A stretch of DNA of 34,962 bases from Syntrophobacterales bacterium (GCA_026417655.1 JAOACS010000027.1:1-34962), one strand, 5' to 3'. Counted from the stretch's first letter, positions 357 through 26,907 are shown. Notes: generated from the letters alone by a model not told the origin. Translations and numbers: made by a program.

Positions 357-1760
357 TTAAATATTTATCCAATAATTTCCGAGACTTTGGTAATTTCCCT
401 GAAAAACCTCTACATCCCGTCCGCTAGCTTTCTTCAATATAGAATCAACCATTTGGGGAAAAACCAAGAGATCCGTCGAAGGAAGAAGCCATTTTACAGG
501 ATATTGAAACATGGTCTCTAACCACTTGTCCGAAAAACCCTCGGCTCCAGAAAGGCATAGAATACCAAACCGATCTTTTATAGTCTTCAGAAACCTTAAT
601 ATATTTTCTTCTAACGGATCCTTCCACATTAAGCTCTGAATTTCTTGTCCAAGAACTGAAGCTTTATATTCCCCATCTTCCGTCTCTTCAATAGAATAGC
701 TAGAATAGGCGTGGAAAATATTGAAAGTTCCTATTTCTAACTTTTGATCTCCCTTTTCTTCAATAAAAGTTTTCACACCAAAACCCTTGTAGTTGACCAG
801 CAACTCAGAAAAAACAGGAAGAAATTCCCTGTCCATCCTCGAAAATCCTCCCACATACCCAGTGGACAGGAGGTTACCTAGAGGCAATCTAAACCAATCC
901 ATGTAAGAGCCCTCCATGCCAACAATCACGAGGAAATCCCTCCTGCCAGATACTTCCACGAACCGAGAGACCTGTTTTATCGATTCTGGTTTCCACAGAC
1001 GGAAATTTTCCATCTTCGCCTTTGAAGCTTTTTTAAGAATCGAACGCAACACGCGTCCATACTCTTCCTGATCACCCCGGCGATTTTTCGGTTTGGGTAA
1101 GACCTCAACGGCTCCAAGACGAAGGAAATCGAACAACAGGTCGGAGGATCCTTCTAAGAATGCACTGATTACTACAACGGGAACACTATAACGTATCATG
1201 AGATGTTTCAAAGTGGTATCACCAGGCATGGTAGGCATAAAGGCATCTAGAGTTACTACATCAACCACCTCATCTTCCATGTAACCTATCGCTTCTTCAC
1301 CATTACTTGCTATGCCTACAACAACAAACTCGGGATCCTCTTCTATAAGTTTCTTAAGCTGCTTGGCAAAAAAGGCTGAATCATCGACTATTAAGACATG
1401 TATAAGCTTTCCCTTCGAGCTTTCGTCTTTAACTCGAGCACTTTCTAGCGCTAGATATTCCCATGGCTTAAATATAGTGCGGGGAACATTATTAACTTGA
1501 CAAGGTATAATCTCAAACACAACATTATCCCATAGGGCTATCTCAAAAAAGGCGGCTTCTCCATCCTTTTGGTTCGTAGCAGCATGGAGGACATGACCAT
1601 CCTTTACAAAAAATACTCCCTCTCCGTTTTCAGACACGGCTTTAACCTTAAGAGGTGTGTTGCCAACACAAATCATTTGCAATAGTTGGAAAATCTCAAC
1701 ATTAGAAATAACTCCTTTAATCCCCTTCGGAGTAAGATCCGAGCGTTTATTGTCCACCAT
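357..1760 (-). CDS. PATAN (DUF4388)-REC protein with a degenerate CheB methylesterase domain
   Basis: This 467-residue cytoplasmic protein has a PATAN/DUF4388 domain (about 12-105), a CheY-like receiver (about 119-243) and a C-terminal region (about 275-450) that follows the CheB methylesterase layout. The receiver is intact: acidic pair D126/D127, phospho-acceptor D172, S199 and K223. The CheB-like part is not. The nucleophile motif GASTGG reads GMEGSY near 281-286, the catalytic His position (HMP) reads SRMD, and the region matching TGMGxDG reads SGAEGFSD. It probably acts as a phosphorylation-controlled regulator rather than a demethylase. It lies 42 bases after cheA, with a GAGGGGTGAT ribosome site before the ATG. 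It resembles the larger protein at 7221-9221, so the two form a paralogous pair. Confidence 0.8.
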   Translation of the reverse strand: MVDNKRSDLTPKGIKGVISNVEIFQLLQMICVGNTPLKVKAVSENGEGVFFVKDGHVLHAATNQKDGEAAFFEIALWDNVVFEIIPCQVNNVPRTIFKPWEYLALESARVKDESSKGKLIHVLIVDDSAFFAKQLKKLIEEDPEFVVVGIASNGEEAIGYMEDEVVDVVTLDAFMPTMPGDTTLKHLMIRYSVPVVVISAFLEGSSDLLFDFLRLGAVEVLPKPKNRRGDQEEYGRVLRSILKKASKAKMENFRLWKPESIKQVSRFVEVSGRRDFLVIVGMEGSYMDWFRLPLGNLLSTGYVGGFSRMDREFLPVFSELLVNYKGFGVKTFIEEKGDQKLEIGTFNIFHAYSSYSIEETEDGEYKASVLGQEIQSLMWKDPLEENILRFLKTIKDRFGILCLSGAEGFSDKWLETMFQYPVKWLLPSTDLLVFPQMVDSILKKASGRDVEVFQGNYQSLGNYWINI

Positions 1761-1802
1761 AAATTAATCACCCCTCATTTATGGAGGAGAAGTTTTTGTT
1801 AG

Positions 1803-4130
1803 CTAGTAGTCCTTTACGCCACAAAACTTTTCGGCAAAATCTATCATATAGGGGACGTCTATAATAAGAGATATTGTCCCATCCCCAAGGATTGTAGCCC
1901 CCGCATAACCCTGAATAACATCCATCACATCCTCTATAGGCTTTATTACTACCTCCTGCTGTCCTAAAAATTGATCCACCAATAGCCCCACCTCCTTAAC
2001 GGGGGTTCTCAGAATAACAATGTAATCCCCTCTTTCTGATGATCTACCCTTTCCGCCCCTCCTTGGAAACAGATATTCGGGGAATAGAAGGGGAATGGTC
2101 CTATCCTCTAAAATCAGGAAATAGGTATTCCGCATCTTCTTTATCCTTCTCTCATCAAAGGCGTGGACTTCTCCGACGGAGGCAAGAGGCAGAGTGTAAA
2201 TATCTCCACGAATCTTAACAAGGAGAGCTGGAATAATGGCCAGTGTAAGGGGTATCTGGATAACGAATTGAGTCCCCTGGCCCGGCCATGATTTAACCGT
2301 AACATGTCCGTTAATCTTTCTGCACTCATCCCTTACTACATCAAGGCCAATACCTCTTCCGGAAGTCTCATCCACTTCAGAAGATGTTGAAACACCAGGA
2401 AGAAAGATGGTCTCAAATAGCTCCTCCTGGCCCATTTTTTCTACTTCTTCTACTTTGTAAATCCCCTTTTCCACAAGAACGTTTCTAAGTCGCTCCAATG
2501 CAATCCCTGACCCATCATCGGTAATCTCTATTATTACATATTGTCCTCTATAATAAGCACTTATGGTTATAGTGCCCTCTTCAGGTTTACCTAGATTCCT
2601 TCTAGCCTCGGGGACTTCAATACCATGGGCAACAGCATTTCTAAGGATATGGACCATCGGTTCATACAGTTGCTCCAGGATTCTTCTATCAATCTCAGTC
2701 TCACCACCTTTAATTACCATTCTTACCGATTTGCCATATTGAGCCGCATGGTCTCTAACCACTCTAGGAAATCTCTGAAAAAGCTGAATCAGAGGTAACA
2801 TACGGATCTTCATAACAGCATCCTGGAGATCGGCCGTTATACGGCCAAGAAGAGAAACAGCTTCACGGTGCTCCTGCCATAGTTTTTCCAATACCTTCTT
2901 ATGGTCGATATCAATAAGGCCCCTATTAAACCAGTCCTCCGCAAGTCTTTTAAGTTCAGAGTTGAGCATAACGAAATGAGAACGCCTTATAACCAACTCA
3001 CCTACCTGGTTCAAGAGATGATCAACCTTTGCTGGATCAACTCGGAGCATCTCGGCAGGCCTATGGGGGATCTCCTTAGGAAGGACCACCTCATCCCTAT
3101 AGACTGGGGCAAAAACCTCTTCTTCCTCTTCAACTATCTCCCTAGGTAATTCCTCTTCTACTGCCTCCTCTATAACATATTCTAACCTTTCGGGTATCCT
3201 CTCCTCTTGTTGTTCTATTTCTTCCCTCTCCTCTACCCTTTCCTCCGGCGCTTCCTCCAACCAGTTAGAAAAGGCCGCTTCAATCTCCTCTTCTAACAGT
3301 TCTACTTCTGTAAAAGGGCGCGCCTCTTCAGGCACCTCATCACCTTTCGCCTCAAAAACCTTTATCAGAACATCGACATCTACTACCGGTAAAACCTTGC
3401 CAAGATAGACCAGGCATTGACTTGAAACCCCAATTAACTCGTCCCTTGATGATCCCTTGCTGATTAAGTCGCTTAAAAGATTCTGCCACCCATTAAAAAA
3501 TCTGACGAGAACCTCATAATCCATATAGCGACTGGAGCCTAAGATGCGATGAAATGCTTTGTCTAACTGATTCTGCCAATCTCTTTGCTCAAAGAGTTTG
3601 CCAGATGCTACTATCTCACAAATTATTTTAAGTTGCTCCCGAAGTGTATCTATAAATATCGAAAACAGCTCGGGATCCGCATCTTCACCCATTATTGGTT
3701 GAACATCCGACGGCATAAAATCAAAGGTTTCAGAAGGCGGTGCCTCCTCAATGTCAGAAAAGGCTCTTTCAACCTCTTGCTCCAGCTCCTGGGGAACAGG
3801 TGGATCCTCTCCAGTCTCTTTGATCACATCAAGACTTTGTTTGACAAAGTCTAGAACCAAAAAGAGGGCATCAATATAACGCTTTTCTACCTCACTACCG
3901 CCCTTTGCGATTGGTTCCAGCAAACTTTCCACCCTATGGACAAAACGGCCTAGGTATTGAAAGCCGGTATAGTAGGAAGCACCTTTAATACTGTGAATCG
4001 CCCGAAAAAGCGAAGAAAGGGATGATCTATCTTTAGGATCTTGATCTAATTTAAGAAGTGAGCTTTCAAAACGATCAGCCTGATCCTTTGCATCTTCCAA
4101 AAAGTCCAACACAATTTCCGAAATTGGCAT
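1803..4130 (-). CDS. cheA: CheA-type chemotaxis histidine kinase with two Hpt domains
   Basis: This 775-residue cytoplasmic kinase phosphorylates receiver domains in response to receptor/CheW signalling. The first Hpt domain (about 1-125) has the phospho-acceptor motif IHSIKGAS with H46. A second, more degenerate Hpt-like domain (about 150-255) keeps FHRILGSS with H194. A very acidic linker (about 275-340) follows. The dimerisation helix begins near 361, the ATPase domain has N498 (HILRNAVAHG), G1 box D538-DGSGI and G2 box GRGIGLDVV at 591-599, and a CheW-like domain fills 630-765. I see no CheY-binding P2 domain; its place is taken by the second Hpt and the linker. AAGGAG lies 6 bases before the ATG. 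Both PATAN-REC proteins of the operon are plausible phosphoryl acceptors. Confidence 0.93.
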   Translation of the reverse strand: MPISEIVLDFLEDAKDQADRFESSLLKLDQDPKDRSSLSSLFRAIHSIKGASYYTGFQYLGRFVHRVESLLEPIAKGGSEVEKRYIDALFLVLDFVKQSLDVIKETGEDPPVPQELEQEVERAFSDIEEAPPSETFDFMPSDVQPIMGEDADPELFSIFIDTLREQLKIICEIVASGKLFEQRDWQNQLDKAFHRILGSSRYMDYEVLVRFFNGWQNLLSDLISKGSSRDELIGVSSQCLVYLGKVLPVVDVDVLIKVFEAKGDEVPEEARPFTEVELLEEEIEAAFSNWLEEAPEERVEEREEIEQQEERIPERLEYVIEEAVEEELPREIVEEEEEVFAPVYRDEVVLPKEIPHRPAEMLRVDPAKVDHLLNQVGELVIRRSHFVMLNSELKRLAEDWFNRGLIDIDHKKVLEKLWQEHREAVSLLGRITADLQDAVMKIRMLPLIQLFQRFPRVVRDHAAQYGKSVRMVIKGGETEIDRRILEQLYEPMVHILRNAVAHGIEVPEARRNLGKPEEGTITISAYYRGQYVIIEITDDGSGIALERLRNVLVEKGIYKVEEVEKMGQEELFETIFLPGVSTSSEVDETSGRGIGLDVVRDECRKINGHVTVKSWPGQGTQFVIQIPLTLAIIPALLVKIRGDIYTLPLASVGEVHAFDERRIKKMRNTYFLILEDRTIPLLFPEYLFPRRGGKGRSSERGDYIVILRTPVKEVGLLVDQFLGQQEVVIKPIEDVMDVIQGYAGATILGDGTISLIIDVPYMIDFAEKFCGVKDY

Positions 4131-4192
4131 AAAAAACTCCTTTTTTCCACCTTAAACCCTCTAGAGAGCCAGCAGGAAAAAGGGAATCTTTT

Positions 4193-6628
4193 TTACTCTC
4201 CCTTCAAAGCCCTAAGGACCTCCTCACCATTGACCTTAAACTGTGCAAGTAAGTCGGCAAATTCCCTCATGACACTTACAAGTTTTTCATTCAAGTCGTA
4301 GGAGTTCCTAGCTCCCGAGGCATTTATATTGGCAAGCTCTGCGACCTGTTTTATGACATTTTCTAACCTCTGGGCATATTCCTGTTGTTGAGTTGTAAGT
4401 TCAGCAATACGGGCTGCTCGTTCGTTGGCCTTCGCAATTTCGCGACTAACCTGATCTGTTCCCTTCGCTTGCTCTTTCGTAGCGGCATCTACTTCCTGAG
4501 AGAGTTGCTGAATCTCTTGAATCATTTCAGCTACACGGTCTCGCCTTATAATCTGATCGCTAGTAAGATTCGTAATCTCTTCGGCCAAAGCACTTAATCT
4601 ATCCATAGCTTCAACAATTCTTTCTACTTCACGGCTCTGATCTTGGGTTGCAAGATTAATTTCGTGGGTTAAGGCATTAGCCTTATCCGAAGCCGTAACA
4701 ACATTTTGCAAAACAGTCTGGCTGGCAGTAGCAAGATTTCTTCCCTCCTGGACCTTTTCGTAACTTTCCTTAGAAAGGATCGCTATTTCTCTAGCTGCTT
4801 CGCTAGTTCTTTCCGCAAGCTTTCTAACCTCCTCGGCAACAACTGCAAAACCCCGTCCGTGTTCCCCCGCTCTCGCAGCTTCAATAGCAGCGTTTAGAGC
4901 TAGCAAGTTGGTTTGGTCGGCAATATCAGAAATTACTTCTACAATTTCCGTAACTCTTGCAGCACCTTCCTCAATAACCCTCATCCTCTCAACCATCTGC
5001 TCAATCGTTTTCTGACCAGAGTAGGCTGTCTCAAGAGCTTCCTGAGAACGTTGAGCTGTTTCCTGCGTTCTTTCTGCTATCCTCTGAATGGCAGCCCGAA
5101 CCTGAGTGACAGCCTGGGAGGTATCTTCTACCGCTTCTAGCTGGCTCGCCGTGCGGATAGATACCTTTTCGTCCGTCTCGCTCATTTGATGAATATAGTC
5201 CAGAGCTTCCACAACCTTTTCGACCTGCTTAGAGGCAGAAATGGAGATTTCCTTAATGTTAGCGGACATTTCCATAAGAGCGGTAGCGATACCCTCGTAG
5301 TAGGACTGACTTCCCAAGGCATTCTGCTGGCTTTCCTCCGCCATCTTTCTTAGCTTGTGAACCTGGGAAAGAACATCCTGAATTTGCGCCGCCTGCTGTT
5401 CAGCATTCTCAACTATATGAGATGTGATACCCTTGACCTGTTCTACCGCCTCAGAAACATGCTGTTGTCCCCTAAGGACCCCTAGAAATGTTTGTTGAAG
5501 TCTTCCAAGTAGCCCATTGAAGGCTATGGCCATCTGACCTAATTCATCTCTAGATTTGACAGCCATCCTTTGGGTTAAATCAAGATTATGAGTTATCTCT
5601 ACCACTGTTTTCAACATATCGGAAATGGGACGGCTTACAAAAACATTCAAAAGCAGGGCCACCAACATTACGAAGACAAGATATATGATTGTTACTAGAT
5701 AAAACTGATTCCTCACCTTCGGAAGAGCAGCATATACCTCAGAGATATCGGCTCCCGCAGCAACCATCCAGTTAAAACCCTTAAATAATCCGTAACCTTT
5801 GCTAACCGAGACGCCAGCAATTTTCTCAATCTCTTCACCGGTCTTCGGATCTTTCCATATATAGCGAGATGAAGTTTTTCCTTTTTTCACATCCTCCACA
5901 AGACTTGGAACCCCAAGATCATGACCAGTCTTTCCTAAAAGAGCCTCTACAGGATGGGCTATAACCTGATATTCCGGTTGACGAACAACATAGGAATAGC
6001 CAGTGTTTCCAATTTTGGAAGCTTTTATAAGATTTCCAATAATTCCCCAATTAACAAACCCCGCAAGGCCTCCAAGAGGCTTCCCACCAGAAATAACCGG
6101 TTCAGCAAAAAGCACAGTATATCCCCTTGAGGCGGGAACAACCTTTTCTAACATTTCATATTTTTGCCAGTTTAAAGCCATACTCTTGCCGGCCATAACT
6201 TCGCTAAACCAGGGCAATTCCTTAACGCTTAATCCTACTACTTCCGACATGTTTGATGAGATAACCCGCCCACCTGAATCAAAAACAATAAGCAAATAAA
6301 AGGTTCCATAATTTTCAACTATCGTCTTAAGAAGGTCGTCACTTCCCGCCTGACCTCCGCCTATTTCCAGAGCAGTTCTAATAGCATCAAGCTGTGCCCA
6401 GGATTTGATATCGGCAATACGTTCATGCATTAGGAGGTCAATGGTGTTAGCCATTCTGGAGGCTTCGGATATCAACCTAGTTTCAACGTCCTTATCTATT
6501 TGAGTCTTAAATGTTTGATAGTTGAGTATCTGAAGTAACACGAGGGGAATAATGGTTAGAAAAAAAAGTCCCATCAATTTGGTTCTGACACTGAGACCAC
6601 CTTCTGACATCCTCTGTGCCCCTGCCAT
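4193..6628 (-). CDS. Methyl-accepting chemotaxis protein with Cache sensor and HAMP
   Basis: This transmembrane chemoreceptor is 811 residues from the ATG at 6628. I prefer that start because AAAAGGAG sits 7 bases upstream; an in-frame ATG at 6655 has no such site. It has a TM helix at about 17-36, an extracytoplasmic dCache-like sensor (about 40-295, with [12 protein letters not shown]), a second TM at about 310-331, HAMP (about 332-384) and a long coiled-coil signalling domain. The conserved hairpin tip (about 566-601) includes [19 protein letters not shown] and [18 protein letters not shown]. No CheR-docking pentapeptide of the NWETF type ends the protein; it stops at ALKGE. It lies 38 bases after cheW and 62 bases before cheA. 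The ligand cannot be told from sequence; a partnership with the PhnD-like protein of the same operon is possible. Confidence 0.92.
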
Positions 6629-6635
6629 TTGCCCA

Positions 6636-6643
6636 CTCCTTTT
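6636..6643 (-). promoter_or_regulatory. Ribosome binding site deciding the chemoreceptor start
   Basis: AAAAGGAG on the minus strand lies 7 bases before the ATG at 6628. It favours this start over the in-frame ATG at 6655, which would add nine residues and lacks a comparable site. Confidence 0.7.
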
Positions 6644-6666
6644 CACATCTTCCATTCGTTACAATC

Positions 6667-7203
6667 TTAAATCACATCAACCAAGGCCTTTTTCAGCTCT
6701 TCCATATTTAAAGACTGTAATTTGTCCCGCTCTTCGGAAGATAAGATCCTATGAAGATTAAGTAGCATTATAAGCCTTTCCTCCATTTGGATAACACCGT
6801 CAAAATATTCCCCCCCTATTTGGCTTTTCAATACACCGGGAACGGGCTTTAGATAATCCTGGGGAACCCTAATAATACCCCTTACACTATCGACTATGAA
6901 ACCAATCCACCTTCCTTCAAGCGTAATTATTAGAACTCTAGTGAAACGATCTAAGGGCTTATACTCTCGGCCAGCTATTTTGAGCCGCTTTCTCAAATCA
7001 ATGACTGGAACTATACGTCCCCTAAAATGGATAATTCCCTCCACAAACTCCGGGGCATTAGGAACTAAAGTCATAGCGGGAAGTCTTATAACTTCCCGAA
7101 CCCTCATTATATCAACGGCAAACTCCTCTTCCGATACGACAAAACTTACAAAACTTTTTAGGTTTACCACCACCTGTTTACCGTAACCTGTCGGCTTCAG
7201 CAT
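6667..7203 (-). CDS. cheW: CheW scaffold protein
   Basis: This 178-residue protein is close to a single CheW domain. Conserved segments are FVVSEEEFAVDIMRVREVIR, VPNAPEFVEGIIHFRGRI and VPVIDLRKRL. CheW couples receptors to CheA at the membrane-bound array. A clear AAAGGAG lies 8 bases before the ATG. The gene sits 17 bases after the large PATAN-REC gene and shortly before the chemoreceptor, the usual arrangement for a scaffold co-expressed with its receptor and kinase. The C-terminal tail after about residue 150 (SSEERDKLQSLNMEELKKAL) is a predicted helical extension beyond the core domain. It is the only ordinary CheW in the window; the 12048-13592 protein may carry a second, divergent one. 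Confidence 0.93.
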   Translation of the reverse strand: MLKPTGYGKQVVVNLKSFVSFVVSEEEFAVDIMRVREVIRLPAMTLVPNAPEFVEGIIHFRGRIVPVIDLRKRLKIAGREYKPLDRFTRVLIITLEGRWIGFIVDSVRGIIRVPQDYLKPVPGVLKSQIGGEYFDGVIQMEERLIMLLNLHRILSSEERDKLQSLNMEELKKALVDVI

Positions 7204-7220
7204 CTCTAAGACTCCTTTAA

Positions 7221-9221
7221 CTAACTATTTGCAATTCTTTTCCACGATTCGATAAGCTGTTCAAGACTCTCTACTTCCTCACCAACTCCGATCTCCCGAA
7301 GTCTAATAGATAAACCTGGGTATAGGCATCTGGAAGGGTTCAAATAAAGTAACGTTATGTCTTTACGTGCCCATTCTTCAAATATCCCTGCATCTTCCTC
7401 TTCCCCAGAAATACAGGAAATTGTTATGTTATCAGAAAATAGGTTCCAAAGGGAGCTCACAACACTTGAGATACCATCTCCACCACTACTAGGTGGTTGT
7501 AAAGATATCATTACCTTGCCATCCAAAGAATAGACAGTAGTTAAAAGATCCTGGGGACAAAGATAAAACCACCCCTTATACATAGGAACAGGAACCTGAG
7601 TAACAATCTCTACAGGTTTTTCGCAATCTAGTCGGACATATTTTATTAGCTCCTGAAGGGGGCTAAATCTTACTGAAGTAAGGAAAATCATAGTAGCATC
7701 CCAATCAGCAGAATCGAGCATAAATAGGATCTTAATCAGATGGGAAAAACTACCAACACCTAAAATATTTAGAAAAATCTTTTCCTTTGGGGTAACAGTG
7801 GAGGAGAAAACCACCTGAGAATAACCTTCCGTCCTGGATTTTCTTAAATATCTTATCTCCTCAAGTTGCACATTACCAGCTCTATATAGCCTATCGAGTA
7901 TCACCTTAGTGTTCCGTTCCATATCCTCTAGGGTAAAATTTTTAGGCTTTTCGATAACATCTACTGCTCCCAATTTGAAGGCATCATAGGTCATTTTAGA
8001 GCTTTCCCCTGCAAAAGCGCTTAAGACTACAACCGGTTTCGGATTTTGAATCATAATCCTTTTGAGAGTACTCAAACCATCGAGTCTTGGCATTTCAAGG
8101 TCTAGGGTAATTATATCAGGGTCATATTTTTCCAAAGCCTCAAGACACTCAATACCATCCTTTGCTGTGGCGATAACTTCAAATCGATTATCCCTTTCTA
8201 GAATTCTTGTAATAACCTTAATAAAAAATGGAGCATCATCAACGACAAGAACCTTATGTTGTTTAAAGGGAGACACCTCAGGGGTAGCCTCAATCTTTGC
8301 AACATAGGCATGCTCTAGTTCCTTCGGGATTGCATCCCCGAGGGATATGATTCTATTTAGGAAAAGGATCGTCCGCAAAGGACTTATTGTAGAAAGTCTT
8401 AACAGAGAATCGATAGACATTTGTTGTCTAGAAAGCATTTCGCATATTTTACTATAGTGGCTAAAGAAGGGGTCTGCGGGATCATCTAAAGCACTATGGG
8501 AAGGTTTAAGCTCTATTAACGTTTTGAAGGAGCTTATTATTTTAAAGATATAAATGTTATCCTTCAAGAGCGCATAGTAGTCATTAATAAGGCGAGACAA
8601 AGGGACGGGGGGATCGAGTTCCGAGATTCCCCCAAAAAGACCCGCTTCCCAGATATAAATACCCTCATTCCAGGAGATGAAATCATATACAGCATCCACG
8701 CCGGTAATTTCCCTGGAATAGGCCCTTTGCAAAAGCCCCTTCACAATCCTAAAGCTAGCATTAGACCCGTCCGATCTGGCAACGGAAAGAGTCCCGGAGC
8801 CCTTACAAAAATCTATTGCCATCAAAAGTTCGTAGGAGCTTATATCTACCCCCAATCGTCCTTCGCTAGGTCGGTTTAGATTAGGATAGCCCGAGAAAGA
8901 TCCACTCCAGACCTTCTCAATCCAGTCACTACAGGCCCCAGAATCCCAGGTTGACAAGATACTATCTTTTGGACTTTTAGGCCATAGAAAGGAGGTAAAG
9001 GGTTCCGTCCAATCTCCCCATATCCAGCAAGGAATCCTATAACCTTCGGGAGAAAATCTCCATTGAAGAAGATTTTCGAAGATTTTTATTCCATTCTTTG
9101 GGATCTTGGCAAATATTCCCTTGATCTCCCTACCGCTATACTCTGGAAGGTGTAGCTCAAAGAAGGATTTCTCTTCCTCAGAAAAGAATTCTTCTCCGAT
9201 CAAAATCCAGCTTCCGCTCAT
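7221..9221 (-). CDS. Large PATAN-REC protein with degenerate CheB methylesterase domain
   Basis: This 666-residue cytoplasmic regulator begins with about 120 residues I do not recognise. A PATAN/DUF4388-like domain (about 122-195) and a helical stretch (about 205-310) follow. Next is a well-preserved receiver (about 322-445: D328/D329, phospho-acceptor D374 in TLDLEMP, S401, K425). The C-terminal CheB-like domain is about 482-655. CheB layout is recognisable (LNILGVGSFSHLIKIL; FSPLQELIKYVRL; GWFYLCPQ; SCISGEEEDAG), but the nucleophile Ser position appears as Gly and the catalytic His position is lost. An Asp remains at the third site. It is probably a phospho-switch and not a methylesterase. 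AGGGGG precedes the ATG. The domain order matches the smaller protein at 357-1760, with an added N-terminal region. Confidence 0.78.
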   Translation of the reverse strand: MSGSWILIGEEFFSEEEKSFFELHLPEYSGREIKGIFAKIPKNGIKIFENLLQWRFSPEGYRIPCWIWGDWTEPFTSFLWPKSPKDSILSTWDSGACSDWIEKVWSGSFSGYPNLNRPSEGRLGVDISSYELLMAIDFCKGSGTLSVARSDGSNASFRIVKGLLQRAYSREITGVDAVYDFISWNEGIYIWEAGLFGGISELDPPVPLSRLINDYYALLKDNIYIFKIISSFKTLIELKPSHSALDDPADPFFSHYSKICEMLSRQQMSIDSLLRLSTISPLRTILFLNRIISLGDAIPKELEHAYVAKIEATPEVSPFKQHKVLVVDDAPFFIKVITRILERDNRFEVIATAKDGIECLEALEKYDPDIITLDLEMPRLDGLSTLKRIMIQNPKPVVVLSAFAGESSKMTYDAFKLGAVDVIEKPKNFTLEDMERNTKVILDRLYRAGNVQLEEIRYLRKSRTEGYSQVVFSSTVTPKEKIFLNILGVGSFSHLIKILFMLDSADWDATMIFLTSVRFSPLQELIKYVRLDCEKPVEIVTQVPVPMYKGWFYLCPQDLLTTVYSLDGKVMISLQPPSSGGDGISSVVSSLWNLFSDNITISCISGEEEDAGIFEEWARKDITLLYLNPSRCLYPGLSIRLREIGVGEEVESLEQLIESWKRIANS

Positions 9222-9239: not shown

Positions 9240-10157
9240 TTATTTTGAAAGCTTATTGTATGTTCTTACAATCGCATCGAAAAATTGAGCGTTAGCGCTT
9301 AACATTTCTGTAGGATCCTTGAAACCGGCTAATCCAGTTTTCATGAGTACTTCACTAGAGGGATCCAAATGGAGAATGCTTTTTTTCAGCTGTTCTATTT
9401 CCTGTTGGGTAAAATCTGACGACCGCAATGAGAGAATCCACTCAGGCCATAGGGGTGTAGAATGAACAAAGGGGAAATTGTCTTCAACTTTACGGATGAC
9501 CCTCAAGTCATTTCTGTTTATTTTATTTTCCGATGAAAGCTTTTCTATTATCCCTGTCCTGACTATTCCGACATCTGCGGTTTTATTAAGAACAGAAAAT
9601 ACCACATTATCCTGTGTCTTAAGCTCCCTTAGCGTTACCTGTTCTATCTTTACCCCTTCCTGCTCAAGTAGAGCAAGCCCTCCTATCCCACCCCCTAAGG
9701 AAAAACGACTCGCAATGCCTATAGTCTTTCCCCCAATATCCTGAAGGGATTTAATATTGCTGTCGGATCTAACTATAATTACTCCCCCATATTTATCGCC
9801 GTTTCCCTTAATTTTTTGCACAATAACACCAATAGGGACAAGCTGAGCCTTATCCCTAGTGACGAGAAAAGCGAGGGGATTAGTGAGAATTAGTTGAACC
9901 TTTGCAGCTTCTATCCACTGAATAGTTGCACTGAAATCTAGGGGAACGGTTTTTACATTGGCATTTAATATCTTTGAAAAATATGCCCCTAGAGGCTCCC
10001 ACCTTTTAAAGGTGGATACAGGCTCATCCACATAGGTAACCCCAAAGGAAAGTTCCCTTGTCTCGCTCCATAAACTTCTCACCCCTAATAGGCAAAGCCA
10101 TATTATAATAAAAGTGAAACCACCAACCCATAATTTAGCCTTCCCCCATCCGCTCAT
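9240..10157 (-). CDS. PhnD-like periplasmic binding protein, membrane-anchored or exported
   Basis: This 305-residue protein has one hydrophobic segment (about 12-30) behind a Lys-containing start, with no convincing signal-peptidase site, so it may stay anchored. The rest matches the phosphate/phosphonate-binding (PhnD, PF12974-type) fold: FGVTYVDEPVSTFKRWEPLG, LTNPLAFL, SLQDIGGKTIGIA, and FVHSTPLWPEW near the C terminus. No ABC permease or ATPase lies nearby. Its start overlaps the end of the pseudokinase gene by 23 bases, and the PATAN-REC gene begins 18 bases after its stop. It is therefore more likely a sensory ligand-binding subunit of the chemosensory operon than a transporter part. 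The ligand is unknown; family membership alone does not prove phosphonate binding. Confidence 0.75.
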   Translation of the reverse strand: MSGWGKAKLWVGGFTFIIIWLCLLGVRSLWSETRELSFGVTYVDEPVSTFKRWEPLGAYFSKILNANVKTVPLDFSATIQWIEAAKVQLILTNPLAFLVTRDKAQLVPIGVIVQKIKGNGDKYGGVIIVRSDSNIKSLQDIGGKTIGIASRFSLGGGIGGLALLEQEGVKIEQVTLRELKTQDNVVFSVLNKTADVGIVRTGIIEKLSSENKINRNDLRVIRKVEDNFPFVHSTPLWPEWILSLRSSDFTQQEIEQLKKSILHLDPSSEVLMKTGLAGFKDPTEMLSANAQFFDAIVRTYNKLSK

Positions 10158-12003
10158 GAACCTCCCCCTTTTTTCGGAATATTATCTCACGGATACGAGA
10201 TGTTCCCCCTAACATCTTTTCAATTGAAAGAAGAATTTGGGTTGTGCTTCTCCATCTTTTCGATGGGAAAACATTGAGACAATTCATAACAAGTTCACCG
10301 ATCTCCTCTGGAAGATCGGGTTTCGCTACCTGAGGAGGTATCGGTTTTTGATCGCAATGAAGCATTTCTATCTCCTCCACCGACTCACCTAAGAAAGGAT
10401 TAATTCCCGTAAGCATCTCATAGAGTATAACGCCAAACTGGTATATATCAGTACACACTAGAGGTTTTTTTGGATTCCACAAATAAGGTCTAAATTGTTC
10501 TGGTGCTCGGTAAGCTAGAAAAGCTAATGGTAATGCCCGATAACTGGTAAGATGGGGGCATAACTCCGAAAGCATCCGCCATAGCCCACCGTAAGCAATT
10601 TTTACCCTAATACCATTGGTTAGAAATATTCGTGACGGTCTTAAGTCAAGATGATAAATTCTTCTTTTTTGTTTATCCTTTGCAAAGTGAAGGTGTAAGT
10701 AACCTAATCCCTCTAAGATTTGATAACTTATTACCAAAACCTCCTCAATATCTACCCGATCACGATTTTTAGCCATATACTCGGCAAGGGAATACTCATA
10801 GTAGGGACGCACAACAAATAGGGTCCCATCTGATGCAACGGCGAGATCTTCAGGGATAGAAATATATTCAGAATCTAACATCATATTTACGTAGACCCAT
10901 TCAATAAAGGCATTCCTATCGACACACTTTTTCCAATTGGGAATTAGGGTGATAGCAATAAAGGATTTTCCATCTCTTCTTCTAGAAACATCAAAGACCG
11001 CCCATGTAGTCCCTAGCTGTAATAGTTCCTTTATGTCGTATGAATGGTGAACCGGTTGCCATGGCAATTCTATATTCCACTTCCAGGACCTCAAAACATC
11101 TCCTACATACCTGGAAAGATCTTCCAGATGAGAAGCAAGAAAGGATGAGTGTTCATCGTAGGCGACCCTTCTCTGGGTTACTTTATTCGAGGCGATTTTA
11201 TCTATAAACTTTCTCTGCCTACACTTGGTGATCTTATCAAAGATCCTCCTTCTAGTTTCTTCACTAAGCTCTGGAATATTATACACTATCTCGTAATACT
11301 CTAACGCCTCATTGTAGCGTCCAGCCCTGTAGGCACAATCGCCGCATAACTCATAACACTCTTCATACCTATAACCTGTTGCCGCTACGAGTTTTAAAAC
11401 CGATATGGCCTCATCCCACTGGTGAATATTCATAAGATTTTTGGCATATACAAACTGCTCCGAAGGGTTTTTAGCTAGTGCCTCCGAAATACCATTTCCT
11501 AAGCTATGGTCACCTACAACATAATCCGTTTCTTCTTTTCGGTATTTGCCATTAACATCGGTTAGGTAGGGGCTTAAGTCTCCTATATAGTCTTCAATTA
11601 AAAAATAGAGATCCTTTCTCTCCTCCTCTCTCAGAGTGGACGCTCTGTTGATCCTGTCCATTAACTCCTTTACAAGATCCCTAACAATGTCATCCATCCC
11701 CTGTTCGTAGTAAAATCTGATCTCCTTGGATTTCTCCCTGATAGCCTGAGAAAGCTCCGAAAAGCTTTCCTCATCCAGGGAGACCTCCTTTTTGATATAC
11801 TTTCCAATGGATCCCACTTCCCTTTCAATATCAGATAAGAGCTTGGCTTTCTCTTCCTCTGAAAGTGGACTTGAGAGGATTTCCCTATGTAAACTCTCTA
11901 TAGCATCTTTTAGGATATCATCTAATCCTTGGAGCTTATATAGCCTTATCTCCTCAATACTATTGGCTAATCTAGCTTTTATGTCATCAAAATTCCTATC
12001 CAT
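10135..12003 (-). CDS. TPR protein with a C-terminal protein pseudokinase domain
   Basis: This 622-residue cytoplasmic protein has three parts. Residues 8-75 and 84-150 are two copies of a helical repeat (IRLYKLQGLDDILKDAIESL against IRFYYEQGMDDIVRDLVKEL). TPR-like helices follow at about 180-265. A Ser/Thr-kinase-like fold fills about 322-598. Fold landmarks remain: HLDLRPSRIFL, YRAPEQF (498-504), and DIYQFGVILYEMLTGINPF (519-537). Catalytic residues do not: the VAIK lysine is T352 (IAIT), the HRDxxxxN asparagine is R458, and the DFG aspartate is Y471 (YGG). D453 survives. It should bind partners rather than phosphorylate. The upstream gene is 44 bases away, and the next gene overlaps its end by 23 bases, suggesting translational coupling with the PhnD-like protein. 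Confidence 0.8.
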   Translation of the reverse strand: MDRNFDDIKARLANSIEEIRLYKLQGLDDILKDAIESLHREILSSPLSEEEKAKLLSDIEREVGSIGKYIKKEVSLDEESFSELSQAIREKSKEIRFYYEQGMDDIVRDLVKELMDRINRASTLREEERKDLYFLIEDYIGDLSPYLTDVNGKYRKEETDYVVGDHSLGNGISEALAKNPSEQFVYAKNLMNIHQWDEAISVLKLVAATGYRYEECYELCGDCAYRAGRYNEALEYYEIVYNIPELSEETRRRIFDKITKCRQRKFIDKIASNKVTQRRVAYDEHSSFLASHLEDLSRYVGDVLRSWKWNIELPWQPVHHSYDIKELLQLGTTWAVFDVSRRRDGKSFIAITLIPNWKKCVDRNAFIEWVYVNMMLDSEYISIPEDLAVASDGTLFVVRPYYEYSLAEYMAKNRDRVDIEEVLVISYQILEGLGYLHLHFAKDKQKRRIYHLDLRPSRIFLTNGIRVKIAYGGLWRMLSELCPHLTSYRALPLAFLAYRAPEQFRPYLWNPKKPLVCTDIYQFGVILYEMLTGINPFLGESVEEIEMLHCDQKPIPPQVAKPDLPEEIGELVMNCLNVFPSKRWRSTTQILLSIEKMLGGTSRIREIIFRKKGEVHERMGEG

Positions 12004-12047: not shown

Positions 12048-13592
12048 TTATACCAAAGCTTCGATGTTAATTATCTCTATATTTCTATACTTATTTAGAT
12101 CAGCAATCCCAAGGGCTTTAGGCGAATCAGAAGGTCTCAAGTTAATAATAGAAAAAGGCGCATCACTAATTATAGAATCCACTATAAAGACAACATTTTT
12201 AATACCGTTCGATGCAAATATTACCATCCCCCCATATTCGCCCTTGATTTGTGGTAAGTTAAGTTTCTTTTTTATATCCACATACTCAAAAACCATCTTT
12301 TTTAATTCTCTACTGGACTTATTTCGCCAAAAACCATGAACTCCGTGCTTTATGCTCTTAAAAAATGGTTTTATATCCTTAAGAGTCCCATATCCCTTAG
12401 AACTCAAAGTATGAGCCTTTTCTGAGGAAATATTATCATATTTTATTAACTGATCGAAGGGAATAGCAAAGTATTTTCCTTGGGATAAGAAGAGATAAAC
12501 CTCTTGAACCACCAAAGATTCTAAAGGGGAACCGCTTTCCTTAGGGGTCGGCTCTATAGCTTCAGACACAACCTCCTCAGGAGCGTATTGGGAAGAAACC
12601 TTTTCAGTTATTTCTAAGGGAGTCACTAATTCCTTCTCAATAGTAGATATCGCCCTATGGGGTTCCTTACTATAGAAAGCAAGGAAAGTTTCTATAGAAC
12701 CCATCCGATCAAGATAACCTTCGTAATGATTAACGATTTTCATCAATCGATCGGCTACGGGTTTTAATTTGGGTCTAGCATCTAAGATACTGATAACCTT
12801 ACGTAATCTTAGATTTGCCCTTTCAAGATCCATCTTTAAGTTTCTAATTTCCTTCTCAACATCTTCAATGGAAGAAATACTAGGCGCTTTAGGTTTAGTC
12901 ACGTCAGGTGTTTCTACCAATTCAGCAACTTTCGCCTTAGGAGAGGGTGGTTCTAAATCAGGTTCCTTTACCTCGTATTGTGTTCTTAAAATATTAAATC
13001 TCTTTTCCAGCTGTTCTACGATCTCTCGATCCTTTTCATCTACCTTTTGATCCTTTTGTAAGATCTTGTTTAAGAACTGAAGGGTCTCTTTAAACAGAGT
13101 TAAAGATATCATAGAGACCGTCTGTTCATAAGATAAAAACCAATTAAGTAATTTCTTAAGAATCTCAAAAAGATGGCGAGTCTCTTCGGTGGGACTAATC
13201 TTAGCCTCTACTGCTAAGATGGAAGCCTTCATAGCTTCAAGGTTTTCCTGAGAAAATTCCCAATCTAGGCTGAGATAATTTACCATAATCTGTTCTAGCA
13301 ATTCCGACAAGGTAGGTTCTTTTTTGGTTTCGAGGGAGATACTCTTTTCCTCGCCGGAATCAATAATCTCCGATATTATAGATGCCCCATCTCTACTCTG
13401 TCCAAAGTCGAAGGAGATGTCGGCCTCAGGTCTAAAGAGCTCATCTATTCTTTCCTCAATACCTCTAGTAAGTTCTTCGACACTAATATCCAATTCAGCG
13501 ATCGTAGAGGAACCATCAGATGTATTACCTTGGTTTTGTTCATCTTCCAGCAAATTATTAATCTTTTCATTCTCTTCTACCTTAGATTCCAT
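12048..13592 (-). CDS. Coiled-coil protein with a divergent CheW-like C-terminal domain
   Basis: I do not recognise this 514-residue protein as a named family. Residues 1-95 are acidic and low in complexity, about 98-205 are predicted helical, and about 242-330 form a further helical/coiled-coil section. The C-terminal region (about 362-512) resembles a CheW fold. It opens with VYLFLSQGKYFAIPFDQLIK, later has YGGMVIF and FIVDSIISDAPFSIINL, and ends GIADLNKYRNIEIINIEAL, which fits CheW-type strands. The match is weak and rests on pattern only. The gene sits between mglA (32 bases) and the pseudokinase gene (44 bases), so it could link the GTPase module to the receptor/kinase array. GAGGG lies before the ATG. 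Composition is more AT-rich than the purine and potassium genes to the right. Confidence 0.6.
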   Translation of the reverse strand: MESKVEENEKINNLLEDEQNQGNTSDGSSTIAELDISVEELTRGIEERIDELFRPEADISFDFGQSRDGASIISEIIDSGEEKSISLETKKEPTLSELLEQIMVNYLSLDWEFSQENLEAMKASILAVEAKISPTEETRHLFEILKKLLNWFLSYEQTVSMISLTLFKETLQFLNKILQKDQKVDEKDREIVEQLEKRFNILRTQYEVKEPDLEPPSPKAKVAELVETPDVTKPKAPSISSIEDVEKEIRNLKMDLERANLRLRKVISILDARPKLKPVADRLMKIVNHYEGYLDRMGSIETFLAFYSKEPHRAISTIEKELVTPLEITEKVSSQYAPEEVVSEAIEPTPKESGSPLESLVVQEVYLFLSQGKYFAIPFDQLIKYDNISSEKAHTLSSKGYGTLKDIKPFFKSIKHGVHGFWRNKSSRELKKMVFEYVDIKKKLNLPQIKGEYGGMVIFASNGIKNVVFIVDSIISDAPFSIINLRPSDSPKALGIADLNKYRNIEIINIEALV

Positions 13593-13624: not shown

Positions 13625-14230
13625 CTATAACAATTTTCGTGCAACACTTCTTATAGTAATTTTTGTAATCTCCTTTAGAGTCTCAAAAACCCCGAAACCA
13701 ACCACAGCGCTAGCCTCAAAGGCTGGAGCATGAAACCTTGCATTAAGGTCTTCCTCGAGTTCTTGGACTGAAAGAAGAGGGAAATTAGATTTTATAAGAT
13801 CTCGTTTGTTATACTGAAGCACTAGGGGAATTTCGTCTATATTTAAACCATATTCTTGCAAATTCTCCTCTAAGTTTCTGAAGCTTTCTACATTCTTTTG
13901 ACGTTGCACCCTAAGGGAATCGGCCACAAAGACAATCCCGTCGGTACCCTTTAATACAAGCTTTCTGGTGGCGTTATAAATTACCTGTCCAGGCACAGTA
14001 TAGAGCTGAATACGGACGCTAAGATTCTTTATTTTGCCTATATTTAGAGGCAAAAAGTCGAAAAAGAGAGTCCGATCCCCCTTTGTGTCTATCGTTACCA
14101 TCTTCCCCGCCACATTCTTACTCATTGTCCTATATAGATATTGAAGATTAGTTGTTTTACCACTTCTCGCGGGTCCATAATAGACTATCTTTACCTGAAT
14201 CTCCTTCTTGGCAAGATCTATAAAAGCCAT
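13625..14230 (-). CDS. mglA: MglA-type small Ras-like GTPase
   Basis: This 201-residue GTPase of the bacterial MglA family controls cell polarity and motility direction in myxobacteria and relatives. Visible motifs are the P-loop GPARSGKTT (19-27), the family signature GDRTLFFDFLPL (51-62), the switch region TVPGQ (78-82; MglA has TVPGQ where Ras has DTAGQ), the base-recognition motif NKRD (141-144) and EASA (172-175). Length matches the family (about 195 residues). A roadblock protein gene, the usual MglB-type GTPase-activating partner, lies just upstream with an 8-base gap, so the two are surely co-translated. Its neighbours downstream are chemosensory genes, comparable in logic to the Frz-Mgl link of Myxococcus. 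Confidence 0.94.
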   Translation of the reverse strand: MAFIDLAKKEIQVKIVYYGPARSGKTTNLQYLYRTMSKNVAGKMVTIDTKGDRTLFFDFLPLNIGKIKNLSVRIQLYTVPGQVIYNATRKLVLKGTDGIVFVADSLRVQRQKNVESFRNLEENLQEYGLNIDEIPLVLQYNKRDLIKSNFPLLSVQELEEDLNARFHAPAFEASAVVGFGVFETLKEITKITIRSVARKLL

Positions 14231-14238
14231 ATCTTTTT

Positions 14239-14628
14239 CTAACCTGATAAAATTTTTAGTAATTCATCAGACATCCGGCTAGTTTTATAGCGGATTAACC
14301 CTAAAGATACACTCTTATCAAATAGAATGACTAGAATAAAATGATTACCTATTTTATTAAAATGAATATTATATCTTTCACCCTTATGAAACAGCAGAGT
14401 AAAATCCTCTTCCCCAACAAGTCTAGCTATCTCAGCTGTGGCTCCAAAGTTAGCGGCAGAGAGGGCAGCAAGGGGCAAGACATCTCCCAAAGGGTAATTG
14501 CCCTTCTCAACGATTAGGGTTCCCGCCATATCAACGAGTAAGACATGCTCCACACCGTTTTTTATTAGCTCCCGATCTATTAACTCAATTAGTCTTGATT
14601 GTTTTTCCTCCGTGAGGATCAAATCCAT
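14239..14628 (-). CDS. Roadblock/LC7 domain protein, MglB-like
   Basis: This 129-residue protein covers a single roadblock/LC7 domain. The typical helix-strand pattern includes VEHVLLVDMAGTLIVEKG, LAALSAANFGATAEIARLVG, and a late strand pair ending ILVILFDKSVSLGLIR. MglB-type roadblock proteins dimerise and act as GTPase-activating and polar-localising partners of MglA. The immediate mglA neighbour makes that the natural role, but I cannot separate MglB from other roadblock regulators by sequence alone, so I leave the symbol blank. The gene begins 6 bases after the pseudopilin gene stop, so the ribosome site lies within the end of that gene. Positioning between a pseudopilin and mglA is noteworthy. 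Confidence 0.88.
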   Translation of the reverse strand: MDLILTEEKQSRLIELIDRELIKNGVEHVLLVDMAGTLIVEKGNYPLGDVLPLAALSAANFGATAEIARLVGEEDFTLLFHKGERYNIHFNKIGNHFILVILFDKSVSLGLIRYKTSRMSDELLKILSG

Positions 14629-14634
14629 TGTGTA

Positions 14635-15054
14635 TTACTCCCAACTTACTATATCTTTATTTTCTCCTTCTCCCCCTTCTTTGCCATCGGCACCCAAAGA
14701 ATAGAGGTCGTAGGCTCCATGGTCTCCTGGAGATTTGTAAATATAGTCATTCCCCCATGGATCTTTAGGAATGTCTTTAGGAAGGTAGGGACCATCCCAT
14801 TTAGGAAGCCCTGGGTTCTTTCTAAGAGCCTGAAGGCCTTCCTCCGTTGTAGGATATCTTCCAACATCCAGTCTAAAAGCATCAAGGGCAGACTCAATCA
14901 TAGTTATTTGAGCCTTTGCTGCCTTTTGCTTTGAGCTTCCAACTTTTTGGAATAGCTTAGGCGCAACCAAAGCGGCAAGAAGTCCAAGGATGATCATCAC
15001 TATGAGAAGCTCAACGAGAGTAAATCCCAAACATCTAGATCTCACCATAGACAT
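14635..15054 (-). CDS. Type II secretion GspG-like major pseudopilin
   Basis: This 139-residue secreted prepilin-like protein has a short positive leader and the prepilin-peptidase site CLG|FTLVELLIVMIILGLLAA: cleavage after G10, F at +1 and E at +5. Downstream features are GspG-like: AKAQITMIESALDAFRLDVG, RYPTTEEGLQAL, WDGPYL, DPWGNDYIY and GAYDLYSLGADGKEGGEGE, the calcium-loop region of major pseudopilins. GGAGGGG lies 9 bases before the first of two near ATGs, favouring 15054. No other gsp or pil gene is in the window, so it is either an orphan secretion component or a pilin-like partner of the Mgl module that follows 6 bases later. It appears to be the first gene of the chemosensory operon. 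Confidence 0.9.
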   Translation of the reverse strand: MSMVRSRCLGFTLVELLIVMIILGLLAALVAPKLFQKVGSSKQKAAKAQITMIESALDAFRLDVGRYPTTEEGLQALRKNPGLPKWDGPYLPKDIPKDPWGNDYIYKSPGDHGAYDLYSLGADGKEGGEGENKDIVSWE

Positions 15055-25971: not shown

Positions 25972-26907
25972 ATGCAGGGATTTTATGAATGGATCGATAT
26001 GTTTCTTAGACATCTTCACCTTGAGAGGGGTTACAGCTACAACACTATTACGTCCTACGGCACAGATCTCAGAATTGTTGCGGAATTTCTAGAGGGTCGG
26101 GGCATCTCTTCCTGGAAGGAGGTCTCCCGAGGGGATCTAGAGATGTTTTTACAGGAGCTTTCTACGGGTTTTTCCAAAAGGACCCAGGCGAGGCGTCTTT
26201 CTGTCCTTAGAAGTTTTTTCAAATTCCTAAGTCGTGAGAAGGTTATTAGCTACAATCCTGCAAAGATAGTAAAATTTCCAAAACTCGATAAGACCCTTCC
26301 CAAGGTTCTTTCCATAGAGGAACTGAGACGGCTCTTTAACGTCTATAGTAAAACTAGCAATAATGCCGATGAGGAATCGGCGAAACTTTTAACCCTTAGG
26401 GACATGGCTATTCTTGAATGCCTCTACGGAACTGGTATAAGAGCCAGTGAGCTTACGGGGCTCAGGATAGAGGGTCTTCATCTCGAAACAGGCTATGTTC
26501 TTATAAGAGGCAAGGGATCGAAGGAGAGAATAGTGCCCCTTGGGGAATACGCCATAGAAGCGCTGAAAAGGTATCTTGAAGAGTCGAGGCCTAAGCTTTT
26601 AAGGAAAAACCGAAATGAGAGATCCGAGAGTGCCTTTGTGTTTCTTAATAATCGTGGTGAAACTCTAAGCCGTCAGGGGTTGTGGAAGATCATAAGAGAG
26701 CTTGCTAAAAAAGCTGGCATAAAAAAGCGTATTACTCCCCACACCCTCCGACATACCTTTGCAACTCATATGCTTGAGCGAGGTGCAGACCTAAGATCCA
26801 TTCAAATACTTTTAGGGCATTCAAGCATTTCTTCCACCCAGGTGTATACTCATCTTGTCCTTGCCTACCTGAAAGACATCCATGAAACCTACCACCCTCG
26901 TCCCTGA
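25972..26907 (+). CDS. XerC/XerD-type tyrosine recombinase
   Basis: This 311-residue recombinase resolves chromosome dimers at dif-type sites or acts in integration. The N-terminal SAM-like core-binding domain (about 1-90) has ERGYSYNTITSYGTDLR. The catalytic domain keeps all six residues: R157 (GTGIRASELTGL), K181 (GKGSKERIVPLG), H257 and R260 (PHTLRHTFATHML), H283 (LGHSSISSTQ) and Y292. Length matches the housekeeping Xer family rather than phage integrases. The ATG lies 12 bases after the carboxyltransferase gene, and the last 26 bases overlap the start of the next gene. XerC and XerD cannot be told apart here with confidence, though housekeeping context (no phage genes adjacent) favours the core Xer system. 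Confidence 0.9.
   Translation: MQGFYEWIDMFLRHLHLERGYSYNTITSYGTDLRIVAEFLEGRGISSWKEVSRGDLEMFLQELSTGFSKRTQARRLSVLRSFFKFLSREKVISYNPAKIVKFPKLDKTLPKVLSIEELRRLFNVYSKTSNNADEESAKLLTLRDMAILECLYGTGIRASELTGLRIEGLHLETGYVLIRGKGSKERIVPLGEYAIEALKRYLEESRPKLLRKNRNERSESAFVFLNNRGETLSRQGLWKIIRELAKKAGIKKRITPHTLRHTFATHMLERGADLRSIQILLGHSSISSTQVYTHLVLAYLKDIHETYHPRP

Follow-up and report, generated by a model that had tools for sequence, protein, structure and literature searches.

Gene organization of the locus

The stretch of DNA analyzed here, hereafter the window, is a sequence of 34,962 nucleotides from a Syntrophobacterales bacterium (GCA_026417655.1 JAOACS010000027.1:1-34962). Its minus strand carries an operon in which a gene for a GspG-like pseudopilin (T2SSG, with an N-methylation motif; 14635..15054) lies upstream of genes for an MglB-type Roadblock/LC7 protein of 129 aa (14239..14628; Robl_LC7, 2.7e-11), an MglA-type small GTPase of 201 aa (13625..14230; Pfam Arf/Ras), a coiled-coil protein of 514 aa, here called p514 (12048..13592), and a TPR-pseudokinase of 622 aa (10135..12003). 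The reading frame of the pseudokinase is exactly the one described in an earlier note on this DNA. It is followed by a gene for a PhnD-like periplasmic binding protein (9240..10157), with which it overlaps by 23 nt, and by a run of chemosensory genes (357..9221) on the same strand. These encode a CheB-like receiver protein (7221-9221), a CheW (6667-7203), a dCache-HAMP methyl-accepting chemotaxis protein (MCP; 4193-6655), a CheA (1803-4130), and, at the end, a receiver-DUF4388/PATAN protein (357-1760). No protein of the core module was named by NCBIfam models above their cut-offs. Elsewhere in the window, the plus strand (26882-29614) encodes a 910-aa protein that combines DHH/DHHA1 domains, a CBS pair, and poly(A) polymerase/tRNA nucleotidyltransferase domains.

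The constant partners of the pseudokinase are MglB, MglA, and p514. The order MglB, MglA, p514, pseudokinase was complete in the window and 22 relatives, covering all four family-level groups that carry the gene, and most of the remaining pseudokinase loci were cut by contig ends. The link to MglA drawn in the earlier note is supported by this order and by a gene presence that tracks MglA. The genes downstream are specific to the genus. PhnD followed by the CheB-like, CheW, MCP, and CheA genes was found after the pseudokinase in the window genome and one congener only, with the 23-nt overlap in both, and PhnD was not seen beside the pseudokinase in the other 28 examined loci. The overlap noted earlier is real but confined to this genus, and a link to PhnD is not supported as the core function. 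The GspG-like pseudopilin gene lies directly upstream of MglB in all examined members of the window's family and was not seen there in other families. A receiver/DUF4388 (PATAN) match was found upstream of MglB in many other loci, in line with neighborhoods of PATAN and MglA genes reported in the available part of a survey of MglA proteins (PMC4316618).

We predict that p514 comprises an N-terminal motif of the IDxLF type, a helical bundle, a long coiled coil, and a C-terminal domain with a CheW fold (residues about 362-514). Pfam CheW matched only two of 20 p514 members (best 4.2e-6), and the window protein itself had no match. In its AlphaFold2 model, long helices are joined to a C-terminal domain that Foldseek places with the CheW fold, the first 16 matches all being CheW or CheA entries (best E=9e-7). 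The N-terminal bundle resembles the P1 domain of CheA, a likeness that we set aside because the match was weak (Foldseek E=0.93). In genomes of f6, the sister subfamily of the pseudokinase described below, we also observed short proteins of about 217-242 aa that consist of the p514 helical domain only (e.g., G048:C135:3537-3998 and G053:C1:3603337-3604609); one of these, in genome G053, follows a second, divergent MglA.

The CheB-like protein has a receiver domain that looks intact and a methylesterase-like C-terminus with no Pfam match. When the protein is aligned with two genuine CheB proteins from this genome, both the window and the congener appear to have lost the active-site Ser and His positions, and it is possibly a second pseudoenzyme encoded in the operon.

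Fold and active site of the pseudokinase

Several lines of evidence agree with the earlier note that the 622-aa protein contains a protein kinase fold joined to TPR helices. 'EQGL'-type helical repeats and TPR occupy residues 1-272, followed by a linker and then by the kinase fold (residues about 320-600). Pfam Pkinase matches residues 331-588 (E=3.7e-16; profile positions 10-255 of 263), and a sequence comparison of the window protein with the PDB returned about 1000 kinases at E<0.01, the best being of the Stk1/PknB types. The AlphaFold2 model, built from 19 sequences, has a mean pLDDT of 81, rising to about 90 in the kinase domain, and its best Foldseek matches were bacterial PknB/Stk1 kinases (E about 1e-12; TM-score by target up to 0.82). 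The TPR assignment rests on weak Pfam matches and on helical repeats in the model for the window protein, and on strong Pfam matches in f6. We note an expanded N-terminus, with two or three TPR units per protein, in two other pseudokinases (L048:1627-4062 and L042:1483-3504).

The active site was examined in an alignment of the window protein, 25 orthologs, and 18 other kinases of the phylum, which places the pseudokinase domain at residues about 322-600 (10204..11040, minus strand). In the window protein, the column of the beta3 Lys holds Ile351, in ungapped alignment with the Lys of canonical kinases and of f6; the earlier note had named Thr352, which is off by one. This column varies among relatives, with Asn, Asp, Cys, or Leu in the window's family, Gln in the two other groups near the window and in most orthologs overall, and Lys in f6 only. 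The most constant loss, one missing from the earlier list, is that of the alphaC Glu; all 26 aligned family members carry Trp in its place (Trp369 in the window protein). The domain also has a reduced glycine loop. The catalytic loop HRDxKxxN has become HLDLRPSR (residues 451-458), in which the HRD Asp is kept as Asp453, the loop Lys is replaced by Arg455, and the loop Asn is replaced by Arg458, an arginine that is invariant in the family except for one Lys. The DFG motif reads YGG at Tyr471 in the window protein and NGG, NQG, NPG, NSG, NAG, YGG, or LGG in relatives. The alignment confirms the replacements of the loop Asn and the DFG Asp that had been proposed before, as well as the retention of APE (residues 500-502) and of the helix-F Asp (Asp519), both of which are invariant. 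The broader statement that all three key catalytic positions are lost is true of the trio meant in the earlier note (beta3 Lys, loop Asn, and DFG Asp) but not of the trio of Lys, HRD Asp, and DFG Asp, of which Asp453 is kept.

A different set of losses was found in f6 (L120-L125, L127), which occupies the same operon position. These proteins keep the beta3 Lys and the DFG Asp, whereas the HRD Asp is replaced by Ala or Gly and the loop Asn by Arg. Two lineages seem to have reached apparent inactivity in the same position through complementary losses, and a complete catalytic set was found in none of the 26 family members aligned.

The catalytic loop itself is highly constrained. In the set of 19 sequences used to assess its conservation, which share 31%-47% overall identity with the window protein, all eight columns of HLDLRPSR are 100% conserved, and this was the only one of 271 eight-column windows of the domain to be fully invariant, which we interpret as selection on the loop rather than drift. 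The protein thus retains a conserved kinase domain from which the beta3 Lys/alphaC Glu pair of an active Ser/Thr kinase is gone and in which the trio of HRD Asp, loop Asn, and DFG Asp is incomplete, with at least one canonical catalytic residue missing across orthologs. The alignment supports the interpretation of a kinase fold with a dismantled active site that is predicted to be catalytically dead, and the earlier assignment as a pseudokinase can be extended to a class-wide family, in which we found no ortholog with Lys, Asp, and Asn all intact. We note that Asp453 and the two arginines leave room for nucleotide binding or unusual chemistry.

Distribution and phylogeny

The relatives that bear the gene fall into four family-level groups of the window's class, which we infer to be Syntrophobacteria. 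In a phylogenetic tree, all 26 family members formed one clade (support 100/100) separate from other kinases of the phylum, and within it f6 branched as the sister of all other members. A profile search of 297 genomes across the phylum found no further close family members outside the class. A scan of the genome collection with two peptide patterns gave mainly close relatives, and the distribution reported here was taken from whole-genome searches.

Presence of the pseudokinase closely followed that of MglA. Across 56 genomes of the class, 36 carried both genes, 15 carried neither, and five were mixed (three with MglA only and two with the pseudokinase only), although these counts are not independent, as related genomes share history. 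All five mixed genomes were less than 90% complete. The pattern for p514 was closely similar. A genome that we take to be that of S. fumaroxidans has two MglA genes. The type IV pilus gene pilM was uninformative as a correlate of the module, since PilM was found in all 56 genomes; genomes without MglA keep it, suggesting that the pilus does not need the module, which would be a regulator only.

PilB-type ATPases in the corresponding genomic position

Genes similar to that of p514 adjoin MglB and MglA in other families of the phylum as well, and in many of these the next gene encodes a PilB-type ATPase of 767-849 aa with TPR, MshEN, and T2SSE domains. Matches of the pseudokinase profile to the N-terminal parts of these ATPases (46-49 bits) run collinearly for about 160 residues. 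Because TPR regions are promiscuous, an N-terminal match of 40-60 bits could be partly generic, and as a check we searched the 297 genomes of the phylum with the profile of the N-terminal region alone (residues 75-272; 11188..11781, minus strand). Outside the class, this search gave 17 matches at E<=1e-9, of which 15 were PilB-type ATPases and 13 lay directly beside a p514 gene, and we consider these top matches specific. The full array of MglB, MglA, p514, and TPR-PilB was present at 13 loci in 10 families (L151, L193-L195, L197-L198, L200-L205, L207).

The MglA-linked TPR-PilB ATPases have a T2SSE core with an intact P-loop (GPTGSGKT). They score best against the PilB model, at 495-532 bits, which is under the equivalog cut-off of 675.65, so they may be paralogous ATPases other than the main pilus motor. 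The window's genome encodes a stand-alone PilB that exceeds this cut-off (TIGR02538, 771.6 bits), together with a PilC-like protein and two PilT-family ATPases. A PilB ortholog with at least 59% identity to that of the window genome was found in all 10 class genomes tested, in open frames of 563-595 aa, too short to include a TPR extension.

Proposed role and alternative explanations

Gene order, co-occurrence, the common N-terminal region, and the dismantled active site, all established by comparing sequences, make up the anatomy on which we base a proposal for function. The presence of a motor ATPase with a matching N-terminal adaptor in the corresponding position of related bacteria suggests an adaptor role for the dead kinase rather than an enzymatic one. 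The pseudokinase may therefore be an adaptor of the MglA module that is interchangeable with an adaptor linking MglA to a pilus motor, a reading that extends to control of the pilus and to which we give about an even chance. The earlier note had inferred an 'allosteric scaffold' acting as a bridge, and the comparative evidence would point to a pilus-type motor at the other end of that bridge instead of PhnD.

Under this proposal, the common TPR region would be an effector arm that reads the module of MglA and the CheW-fold protein, as the TPR protein SgmX does with MglA-GTP in Myxococcus. Where the arm is fused to the motor, as it is in other lineages, control by MglA would operate in cis. The class with the pseudokinase would have swapped the motor for a dead kinase, and its stand-alone PilB, encoded elsewhere in the genome, would come under control in trans. 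The TPR arm would be recruited or reshaped by MglA-GTP, and the kinase fold, whose HLDLRPSR surface is conserved, could act as a platform on which PilB or a different pole-localized partner docks and is placed or licensed. The CheW fold of p514 might allow a chemosensory array to bias the switch, and the operon of the window's genus has had a complete CheA/CheW/MCP cluster added to it. More tentatively, MglB, MglA, the CheW-fold adaptor, and the TPR arm could form a portable polarity module, whose output would be a PilB-type ATPase in many families and, in one class, a pseudokinase that steers a stand-alone PilB in trans. To our knowledge, a pseudokinase in a Ras-like bacterial polarity switch would, if true, be the first.

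The same adaptor could also act on something other than a type IV pilus, by placing or tethering some other polar structure such as an exopolysaccharide machine, a secretion machine, or a chemosensory array. The operon of the window's genus runs into CheB-like, CheW, MCP, and CheA genes, p514 has a CheW fold, and the sole pilus gene in the window's module is the GspG-like pseudopilin, all of which fit such an output. We nevertheless regard it as doubtful, because outside the genus the array lacks the chemosensory genes and the corresponding position in other families holds a pilus- or secretion-type motor with a matching adaptor region. Less probable still is that the domain is a nucleotide-binding sensor or an enzyme that does not phosphorylate, in which Asp453, Arg455, and Arg458 form a metal-independent site for phosphate binding or catalysis, as proposed for DLHK or found in pseudokinases of the SelO/SidJ type. 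Conservation of HLDLRPSR above any other stretch of the domain and retention of the HRD Asp argue for this, as does the description of DLHK, in the portion of a review of bacterial pseudokinases available to us, as arginine-rich, possibly ATP-binding, and carrying HRDLRP (PMC12599244). However, an invariant Trp takes the place of the alphaC Glu, little is kept of a normal glycine loop, and f6 loses the Asp (to Ala or Gly) in the same position while keeping Lys and DFG. The losses in f6 being complementary, no single chemistry is conserved, though the genomic role is.

The remaining readings seem improbable. The scaffold of the earlier note, relaying a PhnD-type extracytoplasmic sensor to MglA, is favored by the 23-nt overlap shared with the congener, yet PhnD was not found beside the gene in the other 28 examined loci, and the PhnD-like protein, which has a hydrophobic N-terminal stretch, is expected to be extracytoplasmic and has no domain that could reach the kinase. 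We find it harder still to credit an active kinase with migrated residues or a decaying gene. Retention of the beta3 Lys and DFG Asp in f6 is compatible with activity, but f6 is without the HRD Asp and the loop Asn, and in the window lineage the Lys, Glu, loop Asn, and DFG Asp are all gone. Nearly all orthologs have an open reading frame and the loop is strongly constrained, on which grounds we reject a gene in decay or a frameshifted relic.

Comparison with known systems

We regard the protein as representing a new pseudokinase family within a known type of GTPase module. An arrangement that joins MglA with a pseudokinase, or a pseudokinase with type IV pili, was not described in the open-access literature that we searched. 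In the available portion of the review of bacterial pseudokinases, MglA and TPR are unmentioned, and the window family does not seem to fit the families described there (PMC12599244). A close likeness is to the DLHK pseudokinases, which, as that text describes them, also keep the HRD Asp and have a non-Lys residue in beta3, DLRP in the loop, and a degraded DFG (PMC12599244). In contrast to the window family, with its Arg458, DLHK retains the loop-terminal Asn and occurs mostly in fusion with DEAD-like helicase or DNA2 domains, where the window family has TPR-type helices only and lies beside MglA; Arg458 and the missing helicase/DNA2 domains rule out membership by the same account (PMC12599244). 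The GLW family, for which the available description gives GLW in place of HRD and a beta3 rich in Leu and Trp, was likewise rejected, as HLD replaces HRD here and the letters GLW sit at the DFG position. A further likeness is to the pseudokinase domain of MviN and to ActPs3, where, according to the part of the review that treats them, bulky aromatic residues are thought to fill the ATP site and the role is that of a non-enzymatic scaffold; the partner of the MviN pseudokinase is recruited after phosphorylation by PknB (PMC12599244). These proteins are described as actinobacterial and often membrane-linked, with all three motifs lost and a deletion in the activation loop (PMC12599244). In the window family, the APE segment is present and the alignment shows no large deletion. 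The reviewed families are mostly of unknown function, as far as the available text goes (PMC12599244), whereas the one described here would bring with it a genomic partner that is defined.

On the side of the GTPase, the locus resembles the Streptomyces conservons and Group 1 MglA proteins, where MglA and MglB are encoded with signaling partners and where some members of Groups 1 and 5 lie near PATAN (DUF4388) genes, as here (PMC4316618). The available part of that survey reports histidine kinases and PATAN but mentions no Ser/Thr kinase fold, CheW-fold coiled-coil protein, or PilB beside MglA (PMC4316618). Type IV pilus genes are reported to be expressed along with an MglA, not necessarily the one beside the pseudokinase, when S. 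fumaroxidans begins to aggregate (PMC10787695).

A functional precedent is SgmX of Myxococcus xanthus, a TPR protein to which MglA-GTP binds and through which PilB becomes localized at the pole, 'by an unknown mechanism' (PMC7519303, PMC11580455). As in that system, a TPR protein acts or is encoded alongside an MglA/MglB pair, and the output of SgmX is the PilB extension ATPase. Unlike SgmX, which has 14 TPRs and no reported kinase fold, the TPR region is fused here to a dead kinase and elsewhere to a PilB-type ATPase. The array of MglB, MglA, the CheW-fold protein, and TPR-PilB is a natural fusion in which a single polypeptide makes the link from MglA to the motor directly testable, and the array with the pseudokinase resembles a split form of it.
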